A program made the translations under genes and the position numbers. This document shows positions 12,120-22,361 of a DNA stretch of 38,450 bases, piece after piece (within the stretch, counting starts at the first letter, position 1; each line of letters opens with the position of its first letter). The notes beneath the pieces were generated by a model. It was not told the origin of the DNA and did not search any database. It worked only from the letters and a program-made list of their open reading frames with translations. The DNA is from Victivallaceae bacterium. Lineage in GTDB: Bacteria; Verrucomicrobiota; Lentisphaeria; Victivallales; Victivallaceae. The stretch is taken from assembly GCA_028691615.1 (NCBI GenBank), contig JAQUYX010000009.1, forward strand, positions 1-38,450, written 5' to 3'.

Positions 12120-12176
12120 GACGGCACTGACAAAAGTCCCGTCGATGGACACGGCGCAAGTTTTGGCAGTGTCGTC
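12120..12176 (+). repeat. 57-bp inverted-repeat element (shortened relative of the 171-bp element)
   Basis: The left arm GACGGCACTGACAAAAGT and the right arm ending GGCAGTGTCGTC form an imperfect inverted repeat of about 18 bp. The left 29 bp match the start of the 171-bp units at 14318, and the right 28 bp match their end. The two ends meet directly (near GATGG/ACACGG) with the interior missing. The element is flanked on both sides by AATCAA (12114-12119 and 12177-12182), a possible 6-bp target duplication. In RNA it would form a hairpin ending 23 nt before the esterase start. Confidence 0.7.
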
Positions 12177-12199: not shown

Positions 12200-13360
12200 A
12201 TGTCGGATCTGATCGGATGCAGGAAAGAGGAAATCACGCTGCCCAGCCTTCTGGACGGAACAACCACCGCGTCGGAATGGGCTGGACGGCGGCGCATGGA
12301 GATTTTGAAACTGCTGGAAAATCAGATGTTCGGCGCGATTCCACCCCGCCCGGACACGACCGTATACGAAACCACCAGTCTGGTGGAAAATGTCTTTGAC
12401 GGTCTGGGCAGCCGGCGCGAAGTTGCGATGCATTTTCAAGTGGGGGGCAAAAAACACACGGTGAAGGCGCTGTGGTATCTTCCCGGCTGTGCCTGCGTCG
12501 CCCCCCGTTCGGTTCCGCTGATCGTCGGGCTTAATTTCAAAGGCAACGCAAGCTGCTCGGCGGAACCGGATCTTGAGATCAACGACGGCGAGATCCGCGG
12601 CGAACAGGTGTCCCGCTGGCAGATCCCGTTTCTGCTGAAACAGGGATTTTCCCTGATTTCCGCAGCGCGCAACGACTTTTTCCCCGACCGTGCGGACGGC
12701 AGATTGGAAAGCATCTTCCAACTGTTCCATCCGGCCACCGAATTAACCGTGTCCCATCGGGAATACACCGCCATCAGCGCATGGGCATGGGGATATATGC
12801 GCCTCTTGGAGCTGGGCGAAACGGAACCGGCGATCGATTCCCATTGCATCTGGGCGCACGGGCACTCCCGGCTCGGCAAGACTGCGCTGTGGACGGCGGC
12901 CAACGATCCACGTTTTGCCGGTACGGTTTCCAATGATTCGGGGTGCTGCGGCATGGCGATCGAACGCGATCATCTGCCGGAAGCCGAACATTTTGCCAGC
13001 ATTGTCCAGATGTTTCCCTGGTGGTTCGTCCCGGCGCTGGATGCGTATGCGAACAAGGAAAATGCCATGCCGTGGGATATGCACTATCTGGCGGCACTGG
13101 CGGCGCCGCGTCCGCTGCTGGCGGCAAGCGCCAGCGAAGACCGCTGGGCGGATCCGTACAACGAATTTCGCTGCGCCAAAGCGATCGGCGAAGTCTATCG
13201 GCTTTTCGGGGCGCAGGGATTGCCTGACGACGTGCAATTTCCCGCGCCGGAGCAGCCGATCTACGGCGACCGTGTCGGCTATTACCTGCGCACGGGAAAG
13301 CACGATGTGACATTGACCGACTGGCAATTCGTCACCGAATTCATCCGGCGGAATCGTTGA
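12200..13360 (+). CDS. CE15-like glucuronoyl esterase family alpha/beta hydrolase, no signal peptide
   Basis: 386 aa. It matches the bacterial glucuronoyl esterase pattern: nucleophile S223 in HGHSRLGKTALW, followed by SNDSG and the FP-W-F block, the APRPLLAASASEDRWADP segment with a candidate acid (E313), and H368 in TGKHDVT. CE15 enzymes cleave ester links between glucuronic acid and lignin alcohols or act on related esters; the true substrate is unknown. Most bacterial homologues are exported, but this one starts MSDLIGCRKEE without a signal sequence, so as read it is cytoplasmic. Start 12200 has only AAAGG about 9 nt upstream. The inverted-repeat element lies just upstream and might have displaced the original 5' end. 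Confidence 0.82.
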   Translation: MSDLIGCRKEEITLPSLLDGTTTASEWAGRRRMEILKLLENQMFGAIPPRPDTTVYETTSLVENVFDGLGSRREVAMHFQVGGKKHTVKALWYLPGCACVAPRSVPLIVGLNFKGNASCSAEPDLEINDGEIRGEQVSRWQIPFLLKQGFSLISAARNDFFPDRADGRLESIFQLFHPATELTVSHREYTAISAWAWGYMRLLELGETEPAIDSHCIWAHGHSRLGKTALWTAANDPRFAGTVSNDSGCCGMAIERDHLPEAEHFASIVQMFPWWFVPALDAYANKENAMPWDMHYLAALAAPRPLLAASASEDRWADPYNEFRCAKAIGEVYRLFGAQGLPDDVQFPAPEQPIYGDRVGYYLRTGKHDVTLTDWQFVTEFIRRNR

Positions 13361-14317
13361 TCGGAAACAATCGTCGCGGAGCAACAACGTCTGGGGAATT
13401 GACAAACGGCAGTGCCGACTTTATTTTCTGTCTTCGCGCGCGGGAGTTCCGGCCGGAAGAGAAAAAGAGACTTTGCACTGCCATTTCCCAGTCTCCCCGG
13501 GCGCGAGTTTCACGTCCCAGAATGGTTCGATCGAGAAGCATTTATTCGTCTTCCAGAAAAACACCCGGGAGATGGACGGCTGCATCTGAAACCGCGCCTC
13601 TCCGCAGGGAGTTGTGACATTCACTTTGTCACTGCTCCGGCGCAGTTCGAAGTCGCAGGGCGTTGCGGCAACAGAAAAAACCTGAGGGGTTCCCGAAAGC
13701 TGAAAGAAACACTTTTCTGCGTCTCCTTCCGACGGGATGCGAAAAAAAGGATGGGCGTACAATTCCGTCCGAATCTCTCTTTTCCCGGTGTTTTTGAGTA
13801 CGAATTCTTACTCGATCGAGCTACCCGACGCGGGGAGCAGGACCGTAACCGATAAATCATACGCATATTGCCGGTACAATTTCTCTCCGGATGATTGCCG
13901 GAACACGAGACGCGTCCCGGCGGATGTCACTTCTTTGGCGGTGCGCCACGGGAAAAAAAGTTTCGGCTTTGTTTCAAAGCGTCCGTCCGCCTCTTCGTTG
14001 AGCACACCGACGCCGATATGAAACAAGGTTGACCGCTTGGGGCCAGACCTTGCCAGTTCCAGCGCCGGATAAAATTCGAAAGGAACTCCGAAGATCGGAT
14101 GTCGGTCATGAATGGAATTGGACTCGAGCAGCCTTGCATTGTTCCCATGAAACCGGAGATCACGCAACCACCCTCCCCGCAGGAAACGCCGACCGTAATA
14201 CTGCCAGTCGGTTGTGGCGTCGGGATCGACGAAGTCTGCAGTGAAGCTGGAATTTTCCACCCGGAATGTGGGGGAGTCCACAACCGAGGCGCAAAGAGGA
14301 AACACCGCTGCAAGAAG

Positions 14318-14488
14318 GACGGTACTGCAAAAAATCCCGACGATGGATTTCGGAACGATCGGGAAAGGGATGAAATGATGGTTTTGAGCGGAGCTACTCG
14401 GAGAGTAACTCCCGAAAAGCCACCGTTTCAGGCCTTTTTCGAGATTCGGAAAGACACGGCGCGACTTTTTGCAGTGCCGTCCCGGAAA
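14318..14488. repeat. 171-bp element, unit 1
   Basis: Unit of 164 bp plus a 7-bp linker (CCGGAAA). The ends are 19-bp inverted repeats: GACGGTACTGCAAAAAATC (14318-14336) and the complement of GACGGCACTGCAAAAAGTC (14463-14481), 17 of 19 matching. The interior contains a 10-bp hairpin (GGAGCTACTC / GAGTAACTCC) and a second stem (CCGAAAA / TTTTCGG). No protein of its own is evident; it is MITE- or REP-like in form. It differs from unit 2 at 3 of 171 positions. Confidence 0.8.
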
Positions 14489-14659
14489 GACGATACTGCA
14501 AAAAATCCCGACGATGGATTTCGGAACGATCGGGAAAGGGATGAAATGATGGCTTTGAGCGGAGCTACTCGGAGAGTAACTCCCGAAAAGCCACCGTTTC
14601 AGGCCTTTTTCGGGATTCGGAAAGACACGGCGCGACTTTTTGCAGTGCCGTCCCGGAAA
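14489..14659. repeat. 171-bp element, unit 2 (tandem copy)
   Basis: Direct tandem copy of the preceding unit with the same 7-bp linker; 168 of 171 bases match, so the duplication is recent. The bases right after it (GACGGCGGTGCAAAAAC, 14660-14676) are native signal-peptide codons that resemble the element end. This could have guided integration or recombination. Confidence 0.8.
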
Positions 14660-14696
14660 GACGGCGGTGCAAAAACATCGGGAAATCTTCCGCATC

Positions 14697-15236
14697 TTAC
14701 TTTACGGTGAAGTTGATATTGGAGAACAACACCGTCCCGCTGGTTTGATAGATTCCCATGCTCAAGCCCATGTAGTTGAGGTTGGCAGGCACGGCAAAGG
14801 TCGTGCTGACTTTGCGCCATTGATAACTGCCGAAACGATCCGCGCGGGTGAGACCTTCTTCGTTGTACTGCTTATTGCCATCGGCAACCGCGAAGATCTG
14901 GCATTTGACGCCCTTCCAGCTCTGCGGAACGGCTTTGACGTTTTCCGCCTTGACCATCGCGGAAAAAGTCACAGTCTTGCCCCGCACCGCAGCCACCGGA
15001 ATAATGAAGTTGATCGTTTTTCCTTTGTCGTCGGAAGCGACAAATTTGACCGCGTAATTGCCACTGGGGCCTGCCGCCGGAAGCAATTCAGCAACTGCAG
15101 AATTTTTCCAGAGGGCCAGCGACTGGGCAGTACCGCACATGTTTTCATAAAGCGCGCCTGCGGCCTTTCCCTCCTCGGCAGCAACTCCGATTGCCATCAA
15201 TGCCGCAGACAACATGCACAACGTTTTCCCTACCAT
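14697..15236 (-). CDS. Secreted stand-alone carbohydrate-binding-like module
   Basis: 179 aa with a signal peptide (MVGKTLCMLSAALMAIGVAA). The mature part is closely similar, over about 150 residues, to the C-terminus of the GH13 enzyme encoded upstream: shared blocks include AAVRGKTV-FSA-VKAE-VKAV, SWKGVK, DRFGSY-WRK and GIYQTSGTV-FS. A jelly-roll, glycan-binding fold is likely; no catalytic residues are seen. Start 15236 is preferred over the longer frame from 15311 because AAAGGAG lies 8 nt upstream and a signal peptide begins there. The next gene starts one base after its stop. Confidence 0.8.
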   Translation of the reverse strand: MVGKTLCMLSAALMAIGVAAEEGKAAGALYENMCGTAQSLALWKNSAVAELLPAAGPSGNYAVKFVASDDKGKTINFIIPVAAVRGKTVTFSAMVKAENVKAVPQSWKGVKCQIFAVADGNKQYNEEGLTRADRFGSYQWRKVSTTFAVPANLNYMGLSMGIYQTSGTVLFSNINFTVK

Positions 15237-15358
15237 CTTCGATTCTCCTTTGTTTTGTCCGGTCTTGCGACCGGATTGAAGTTGTTGCAAAACGGAACTT
15301 CGCATCCGCAACGGTCGATTCCCCGTTTTTTAGGGCTCACTCTTTCCGTTTCTGTTCT

Positions 15359-15416: not shown

Positions 15417-17447
15417 TCATTTCGCGGACAAATCCAGAGCCGAAAAATACACCGTTCCGCTGGTCTGGTAGATTCCGATGCTCAAACTCATATAAGTGAC
15501 GTTTTCGAGCACCTGGAAGGTCGTGCCAAGCTTGCGCCAATCGTAACTGCCAAAACGGTCGGCGAAAGTCATACTCTCCTGATTATAATCTTTTTTGTCC
15601 GCCGTCGTCGCGTAGATCTGAAGCTTCACGCCCTTCCAACTTTCCGCGACCGCCTTGACGTCCTCGGCTTTGACCAGCGCCGAAAAACGCACGGTCTTGC
15701 CCCGCACCGCAGCGACAGGCACGACAAACCGCATGGTTTTGCCCTTAGCGTCCGATGATTGCAACCGGATGGCCCCAGTTCCGTTCGGTCCGCCCGAAGG
15801 CAACAGCTCGGCCGCAGCATAATTATCCCAGAGCACCAGAGTCTTCTTGCTCTCCGCCATCGGGCTGAACAGCCGGTGGGCAAACACCTCCTTATTTTCC
15901 GCAGAAGCGGATTGCGGAGCCTTCGCCTCCGACTTGGGACGGACGGGCCGGAGCGGCCCTGCTGCGGAACACTTTCCTTCGACGAGATAAACCCCGACGC
16001 CGTCCGGCGCAATCGAGGCGCTGAAATCCCGGAGCTTCCCCGAGGAAATCGCGCGATCAAGCATGAGATCCTTGACCGTCACCGGCGCGGCGGCGTCCAA
16101 ACCGATCCGTTCATAGGGAATGGAGATTTGGAACTTGCGCAACTCTTTGCCATTGTTCGGCACGACCAGCACCGCCTTGTTGCCCGCGTAACGGGCGTAG
16201 GGCTGAAGCAGATCTTTCTGATCGGTGTCGACCTTGCAGATGTTGGAGTCGCGGTGATCCTCCGGGAAATGCTCAAAGATTTCAGGGAAACTGCGCCGGA
16301 TTCGGATAAGCTTCTTGACCGACTCGAAGAACGCCCGGTTCTCCGGCTTGTCCAGAAGCGTCCAATCAATCTTGTTGTCATACATCCAGGGCGCTTTTTC
16401 CCCGGGTTTCCGGGGCTTTCCGGTCACCGGATTGTTCCACTCCTCCCCGAGGTACCAGAGCGGAATATAGGGCGCGAGAATCGCCTGATACCCGAGGACG
16501 TAAAGTCTTCCCTGCGCCAAATACTGCCGACTGTCGTGACAGGAGATCATATAGGTATAGAAACGCTCCCGCCCGGAGGGGGCTTTGGCGTCGCGCACCC
16601 AAAATTCGTCGCCGGATTTCACCATGTCGACCAGATTCTTCTCCAGAAAAGCGTCCCCGACCCAACGGGGTTTCGCGTGCTGTTCCTGAAGCATGGAAAC
16701 CTGATCGAAATCAAAGACGTTTTTGCGCGCGCTGCCCCATTCGGAGATAAAGACGGTTTTGCGTCCCATCGCGCGAAGGCGCGTTTTGGCCGTTTCGTAA
16801 GGCCCGTATTCGCAATAGAACGGCGCACAGTCACAGCGGAACCCGTCGGCGCCGGTAAGCAAAATCCATTCAACGATCCGCGAGGCAAACCACTCCCGCA
16901 GCTCCGGATTCTTCCAATCGAAGAGCCAGCCGCCGTATTTCTTGATCTCGTCGCCGAACCACTCGGGTTTCTCCCGGCGCAGCGGCGCGTGTTTGCTCGC
17001 CCCCCAGGAGACGACGTCAAAAAAGACACGGATATTGCGTTTATGGGCTTCATCAACGAAATTTTTCAGCGCCTGCCAGCGTTTCGCGGGCTCTTTCTCG
17101 CCGGTAATCCGGGCGTTGACCGTGTGAATTCCGTAGTTGCCGTAATGACTGCCTTCACAGAGCGGCGGAATCCAAACGCCATTGACCCCCATCTCGGCAA
17201 GATGATCGAGAACTTTGGGCATGCCTTTGACCGTCCAATCGGGGGACGCCGAATCGATGCGCACCTCCACCATGATGAGGCTCTTGATCCAATCGACGTG
17301 CTCGCGGGAACCGTCCCGAGAAATCTCATACTGCACCTTGTCGTCGCTTCGGTATTTCGGCAACAGCTGCGAATTATCGATTCCGCCGGCGGCGGCAAGC
17401 GTCGCCACGGCAAAAATTCCCGTCAAAACTCCGAATCGTTCCCGCAT
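15417..17447 (-). CDS. Secreted GH13 (alpha-amylase family) enzyme with C-terminal binding module
   Basis: 676 aa. Signal peptide (about 1-20, GVLTGIFAVATLAAAG) and a GH13 barrel: region I D144-V-V with H153, region II GFRCD (R204, nucleophile D206), region III FISEWG (acid/base E236), region IV CHD (H304, D305). The catalytic triad is complete. Region I lacks the usual Asn-His pair (DVVSWGASKH), so this is a divergent subfamily. After a barrel-end domain and a Pro/Ala/Ser linker (about 490-520) comes a module (about 524-676) nearly the same as the protein encoded next. The enzyme likely acts on alpha-glucans or related sugars outside the cytoplasm. Start ATG 17447 has GGAGG 4-5 nt upstream. 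Only 18 nt separate it from the pilin-like gene. Confidence 0.88.
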   Translation of the reverse strand: MRERFGVLTGIFAVATLAAAGGIDNSQLLPKYRSDDKVQYEISRDGSREHVDWIKSLIMVEVRIDSASPDWTVKGMPKVLDHLAEMGVNGVWIPPLCEGSHYGNYGIHTVNARITGEKEPAKRWQALKNFVDEAHKRNIRVFFDVVSWGASKHAPLRREKPEWFGDEIKKYGGWLFDWKNPELREWFASRIVEWILLTGADGFRCDCAPFYCEYGPYETAKTRLRAMGRKTVFISEWGSARKNVFDFDQVSMLQEQHAKPRWVGDAFLEKNLVDMVKSGDEFWVRDAKAPSGRERFYTYMISCHDSRQYLAQGRLYVLGYQAILAPYIPLWYLGEEWNNPVTGKPRKPGEKAPWMYDNKIDWTLLDKPENRAFFESVKKLIRIRRSFPEIFEHFPEDHRDSNICKVDTDQKDLLQPYARYAGNKAVLVVPNNGKELRKFQISIPYERIGLDAAAPVTVKDLMLDRAISSGKLRDFSASIAPDGVGVYLVEGKCSAAGPLRPVRPKSEAKAPQSASAENKEVFAHRLFSPMAESKKTLVLWDNYAAAELLPSGGPNGTGAIRLQSSDAKGKTMRFVVPVAAVRGKTVRFSALVKAEDVKAVAESWKGVKLQIYATTADKKDYNQESMTFADRFGSYDWRKLGTTFQVLENVTYMSLSIGIYQTSGTVYFSALDLSAK

Positions 17448-22324: not shown

Positions 22325-22332
22325 AAACAAAA

Positions 22333-22361
22333 GACACGACGCGAATTTTATCAGTGCCGTC
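22333..22361 (+). repeat. Half-element remnant related to the 171-bp repeat
   Basis: 29 bp starting GACACGACGCG and ending TCAGTGCCGTC match the right end of the 171-bp units (24 of 29 by eye). No left end is visible nearby. It begins 9 bp after the dehydrogenase stop codon and abuts the terminator. Confidence 0.55.

Follow-up and report, generated by a model that had tools for sequence, protein, structure and literature searches.

The window, by which we mean the whole analyzed stretch of 38,450 nucleotides from contig JAQUYX010000009.1 of Victivallaceae bacterium (assembly GCA_028691615.1), carries a two-unit tandem array of a palindromic element that lies within the first codons of a gene for a secreted protein. 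The array, the two parts of the interrupted gene and two further traces of the element in the window are as follows.

14318..14481, + strand: element copy 1, palindromic and MITE-like, 164 bp, with ends GACGGTACTG and CAGTGCCGTC; its full-length relatives in this genome number more than 60
14482..14488, no strand assigned: spacer CCGGAAA, 7 bp, in the direct-repeat position (spacers in other arrays of this genome are about 6 bp)
14489..14652, + strand: element copy 2, palindromic and MITE-like, 98% identical to copy 1
14653..14659, no strand assigned: second occurrence of CCGGAAA, to the right of the array
14660..14695, − strand: codons 1-12 (MRKISRCFCTAV) of the interrupted gene for the secreted protein, with its ATG at 14695
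13808..14317, − strand: remaining host frame (LLAAVFPLCAS...), with an in-frame TAA at 13808-13810; likely pseudogene
12120..12176, + strand: internally deleted derivative of the element, 57 bp, with the 6-bp sequence AATCAA on both sides
22330..22361, + strand: right-end relic of the element, matching at E 1e-4 in the window with no counterpart in the reversed-window control

The first-pass annotation had proposed a tandem of 171-bp units that are 98% alike, and this was borne out: the two units form a direct repeat with a period of 171 bp and 98% identity. The conserved element itself is 164 bp long, running from GACGGTACTG to CAGTGCCGTC, and the other 7 bp of the period are CCGGAAA. Because CCGGAAA follows both of the 164-bp units, the 171-bp period is best understood as unit plus spacer. 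The two copies differ at three positions, and copy 2 is the nearest match to copy 1 in our sample (98.2%, versus at most 86.6% for copies elsewhere). The array has no clean direct repeat at the outer edge on its left, where CAAGAAG agrees with CCGGAAA at 4/7 positions. Immediately to the right of the array, at 14653-14675, the codons GACGGCGGTGCAAAAA are 13/16 identical to the left end of the element (GACGGTACTGCAAAAA), and this stretch may be a target that resembled the element end or a relic of a third copy. The 57-bp short form at 12120-12176 lies just upstream of the gene at 12200-13360.

The ATG of the host gene at 14695 is 1 bp past the stop of an upstream gene (14697-15311), an operon-like arrangement. 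By eye, that upstream gene and the C-terminal part of the gene at 15417-15870 look like duplicated domains, on the basis of similar DNA at 14740-15130 and 15450-15840. Reading the minus strand from the ATG, the 342 bp of the insert are open in the host frame, with no stop through both units, which agrees with the earlier claim that 114 codons had been added without closing the frame. When the flanks are joined without the insert they give MRKISRCFCTAV-LLAAVFPLCAS, and the longer joined product (MRKISRCFCTAVLLAAVFPLCAS...) aligns in both its N-terminus and its body with three homologues from related genomes, at 34-43% identity. These homologues, all of them distant, lack the insert (3/3). Since the joined flanks align with insert-free N-termini, we conclude that the array interrupts signal-peptide codons, as had been claimed. 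The idea that the 114 codons are a conserved domain of the host protein, which would have undermined the insertion, was ruled out by the same homologues.

It had been suggested that a signal-peptide-like stretch is rebuilt at the junction. The insert, however, offers no ATG, GTG or TTG codon in the host frame; with the only in-frame start about 114 residues away, the rebuilt hydrophobic segment would fall inside the protein. The first-pass annotation also missed that the host frame ends at the TAA at 13808-13810. The homologues run on past this codon, with conserved sequence recognizable further downstream in the window, and the host gene is therefore a likely pseudogene. The TAA could be an error in this draft MAG. 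Judging from its split signal peptide and its nonsense codon, the host gene in the window is most likely dead.

We examined how widely the element is dispersed in its source genome (3.1 Mb in 282 contigs, 92% complete), counting full copies in 462 kb of stretches sampled from it. There were at least 54 matches to the 342-bp array in this genome. A degenerate end pattern gave 219 matches in the whole genome versus 1 for a reversed-pattern control, so the earlier expectation of further copies of the unit was amply confirmed; a right-end pattern gave 164 matches and a longer left-end pattern 80, each versus 0 in the control. The 462-kb sample contained 62 full-length copies and 130 pieces. The full-length copies are 163-166 bp in size with a mean mutual identity of 81%, and they share the recurring sharp ends GACGRYRCTG...CAGYRYCGTC. 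The family is present in 100 or more copies in this Lentisphaeria genome, mostly between genes. By a crude hexamer gene call, under which 81% of the sample was called coding, 52 of 62 arrays are intergenic. The 10 that overlap a gene call all lie near its 5' end, mostly with a plausible start codon after the element, and we found no consistent pattern in the position and orientation of arrays relative to genes. Searches of plasmids, phages and viral contigs found no copies, and named genomes gave no exact matches.

Comparison of the flanks of full copies revealed a signature of insertion. The 6 bp to the left and right of the element are identical at a rate of 0.57, compared with 0.33 when right flanks are permuted; 12/61 copies have perfect 6-bp repeats, and the signal is gone at 7-8 bp. 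This flanking direct repeat of about 6 bp is a target-site duplication. The copies are also strongly clustered: for 45/62 full copies a further element end lies no more than 22 bp away, versus about 10% for random positions. Within arrays, the spacers are the direct repeat specific to that locus (ACTTCA three times in contig C15, CCTTAA in contig C80), and head-to-tail neighbors are each other's closest relatives in the sample in 20/23 adjacent pairs. Because neighbors are closest relatives, we infer that arrays grow by local duplication of the element together with its direct repeat, and not by repeated independent insertion. This local duplication may proceed by slippage on the hairpin or by the re-joining of one end at the 6-bp repeat.

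The same data bear on whether the window tandem was created by assembly, a concern raised by the draft nature of the MAG and by runs of N in several other arrays. However, tandem arrays with locus-specific spacers occur at many independent loci, three copies are contiguous in both C15 and C80, and the two window copies are distinguishable at their differing positions. We regard an assembly artefact as extremely improbable.

The first-pass annotation had further supposed that the element prefers exported genes and keeps them in frame, and we asked how far the open frame in the window is a property of the family. Every full copy (62/62) has at least one open frame, and column shuffling produced similar numbers of open frames, except in one frame (27 versus 20, reached in 2% of shuffles). 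The synonymous fraction was 0.275 versus 0.266 expected in the main plus-strand frame, and 0.313 versus 0.279 in a further comparison. These shuffles and the synonymous test rule out a protein-coding role for the element, and the open frame in the window is a by-product of the element sequence. As a more general lesson, the presence of an open frame in an element of this kind does not constitute evidence for a coding role.

In-frame insertions do occur. By scanning 5' ends for N-terminal insertions we found three arrays of this kind, namely the window array, one at L137:3429-3936 and one at L191. At L137, three tandem copies stand in frame after ATGAA and are followed by TSLLILLLLLGGPSLTSA (MK-array-TSLLILLLLLGGPSLTSA), a second case within a signal peptide, in a gene whose frame runs open over 822 codons until the fetched DNA ends. 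The product beyond TSLLILLLLLGGPSLTSA is long and coiled-coil-like. The L191 array, not far from the end of a contig, is in frame near the first codons of a different gene. That the L137 gene remains open indicates that in-frame N-terminal insertions can persist. In-frame signal-peptide insertion is therefore real in the window and at L137, as had been claimed, although most arrays lie between genes. An element specialized for exported genes and for keeping their frames would account for these three arrays, but it is very unlikely on the remaining evidence: most arrays are intergenic under the gene call used, the excess of open frames is marginal and confined to a single frame, there is almost no codon-level constraint and the window host carries a nonsense codon. 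Survivorship explains the in-frame cases, because out-of-frame insertions in needed genes are lost. Copies at first codons can survive in frame because element plus spacer often amounts to 171 bp (165+6 or 164+7) and is poor in stops.

The annotated 19-bp terminal inverted repeats and internal hairpins are better described as one end-to-end hairpin in each window unit, with folding energies of -87.2 and -78.4 kcal/mol on the plus strand. Across 39 copies, the hairpin has 53 consensus pairs, which hold in 95.5% of cells, while slid registers of the same hairpin test are only 39-46% paired. Both sides have changed at 19 pairs, compared with a shuffled mean of 11.3, and the covariation score is 0.210 versus 0.127 in shuffles, with 0/500 shuffles as high; related sequences can exceed such shuffles without any structure, yet here whole blocks have been swapped together. 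Selection on the hairpin and templated correction from arm to arm would both give this pattern.

Such strong compensatory change raises the alternative that the family is a structured RNA or regulatory hairpin that spread across the genome and is kept because the GACGG...TTTGAG...CGAAAA transcript has a function in mRNA leaders and 3' ends, for instance that of an RNase III site, a stabilizer or a terminator. Consistent with this, the copies are mostly intergenic, and of the two strands it is the GACGG one that folds better in 57/62 copies and in nearly all tested relatives of other genera. A strong G-U strand bias was considered and rejected: that strand was the one on which the structure had been picked, and at consensus Watson-Crick pairs the departures to G-U and A-C are similar in number (122 versus 93). 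Other observations argue against the RNA: direct repeats and local arrays mark mobility, position and orientation relative to genes are inconsistent, and Rfam returned no family at gathering score in the window, the region giving only a single chance-like match below threshold. The need for a hairpin can equally arise in a mobile element. We therefore consider a functional RNA as the reason for the family's maintenance to be improbable.

If the element is mobile, a source of transposase might be expected. In the 92% complete genome, a search with four families (DDE_Tnp_1, rve, Y1_Tnp and Transposase_mut) found no transposase associated with the element ends. The last three families had no matches, and DDE_Tnp_1 had a single partial match without similar ends, a decayed fragment with a 202-codon frame (L272, contig C23 of G000, the source genome). 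Within the scope of these four families, a REP/RAYT or IS source was set aside, given the lack of Y1_Tnp, rve and Transposase_mut and the differing ends of the DDE_Tnp_1 fragment. When the sampled stretches were scanned loosely for end pairs 0.2-5 kb apart, none combined matching ends with convincing direct repeats as a source transposon would.

Sharp ends, direct repeats of about 6 bp, many unrelated sites, a compensated hairpin, short deleted forms and arrays of related copies together lead us to read the family as a MITE (miniature inverted-repeat transposable element, a non-autonomous derivative of a DDE transposon) of 164-166 bp, and we hold this with considerable confidence. The element is shorter than 500 bp, contains no transposase gene and is free of protein-level constraint; it has terminal inverted repeats at sharp boundaries, a target-site duplication and dispersed copies. 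It would have inserted by a 6-bp staggered cut, through a transposase acting in trans that would since have been lost, be missing from the assembly or go unrecognized here. Arrays would then enlarge through local copying of the element plus its direct repeat. Most surviving copies lie between genes; in the window, the array broke up the signal peptide of a small protein that is secreted. Against the MITE stand the compensatory evolution over the whole element, which exceeds what end binding by a transposase needs, the want of a transposase with these ends among the four families searched and the unclean outer left repeat of the window array. It is conceivable, though we think it unlikely, that the entire 164-nt fold on one strand is under selection, through an ssDNA or RNA intermediate, and that the element multiplies into head-to-tail arrays linked by direct repeats in a way not known from ordinary MITEs, without a recognizable transposase.

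Several named systems share parts of this build. The closest of them in build is QMITE2 of Coxiella burnetii (PMC5896051). In the excerpted account, its elements are 150-190 bp, form a long hairpin, have direct repeats of variable sequence and occur in full and short versions; the copies, about 50 or more, lie chiefly between genes or on their 3' side. QMITE2 differs in sequence, in host and in the 7-9 bp direct repeats of its full-size copies (about 6 bp here), and the direct-repeat-spaced tandem arrays that are frequent here are absent from that account. The enterobacterial ERIC (RU-1, 127 bp) and RU-2 (168 bp) are also palindromic, MITE-like and mostly intergenic, and their open frames make in-frame fusions with genes; in Y. 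pestis YPO1552, part of the predicted signal peptide is RU-2 sequence (PMC2759123). Unlike our family with its 6-bp repeats, they have TA ends and TA target duplications, and a sequence relation is not established. Rickettsia palindromic elements (RPE) are palindromes of about 150 bp that lie in frame inside genes, and nearly half of the reported Rickettsia copies are genic, with a conserved peptide (reviewed in PMC10969869), whereas here the copies are mostly intergenic (52/62) and no peptide is conserved, the synonymous fraction being near expectation. The CGTC-tagged REPs are palindromic repeats of 20-40 bp, with stems of 8-9 bp, an unpaired CGTC tag and no dedicated transposase known (PMC3733652); a REP/RAYT system as such pairs a stem-loop of this size, tagged with unpaired GTAG or CGTC, with a Y1 transposase. 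The CGTC-tagged REPs share with our family the end letters CGTC alone, which here pair with GACG in a 164-bp hairpin, and the genome has no Y1_Tnp.

The window family thus differs from these systems in its sequence, in its 6-bp repeats (not TA or 7-9 bp) and in its frequent arrays. A narrow literature search with few terms found no paper on MITEs of Lentisphaeria, which agrees provisionally with the earlier claim of an undescribed family, although precedents of the same build exist. The family adds an abundant and apparently undescribed palindromic MITE for rumen or gut-type Lentisphaeria. Together, its direct-repeat-spaced arrays, compensated hairpin and rare in-frame N-terminal insertions provide a test case for the local duplication of hairpin elements and for their occasional addition of peptide to secreted proteins.

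Finally, we looked for the element in other Lentisphaeria. With the window unit as query, 60 relatives gave short matches only, and the long end pattern identified one other family member, G079. With the G079 element as query, G078, G079, G081 and G068 yielded diverged relatives that share its ends and core, G064 and G097 gave weaker matches, and a core pattern from the related element occurs at 12 places in two named goat-rumen Lentisphaeria MAGs. In G078 the related element is embedded in an intergenic module, as long as about 530 bp, that is repeated at several loci (L242:1131-1663 and 13981-14302; L243; L248). This module was considered as a carrier transposon and set aside, since the flanking open frames, examined by eye, contained no transposase. 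In another genus, tandem repeats of about 160 bp (L032 and L035, contig C282 of G030) have only the core TTTGAG(hairpin)CGAAAA in common with the element.
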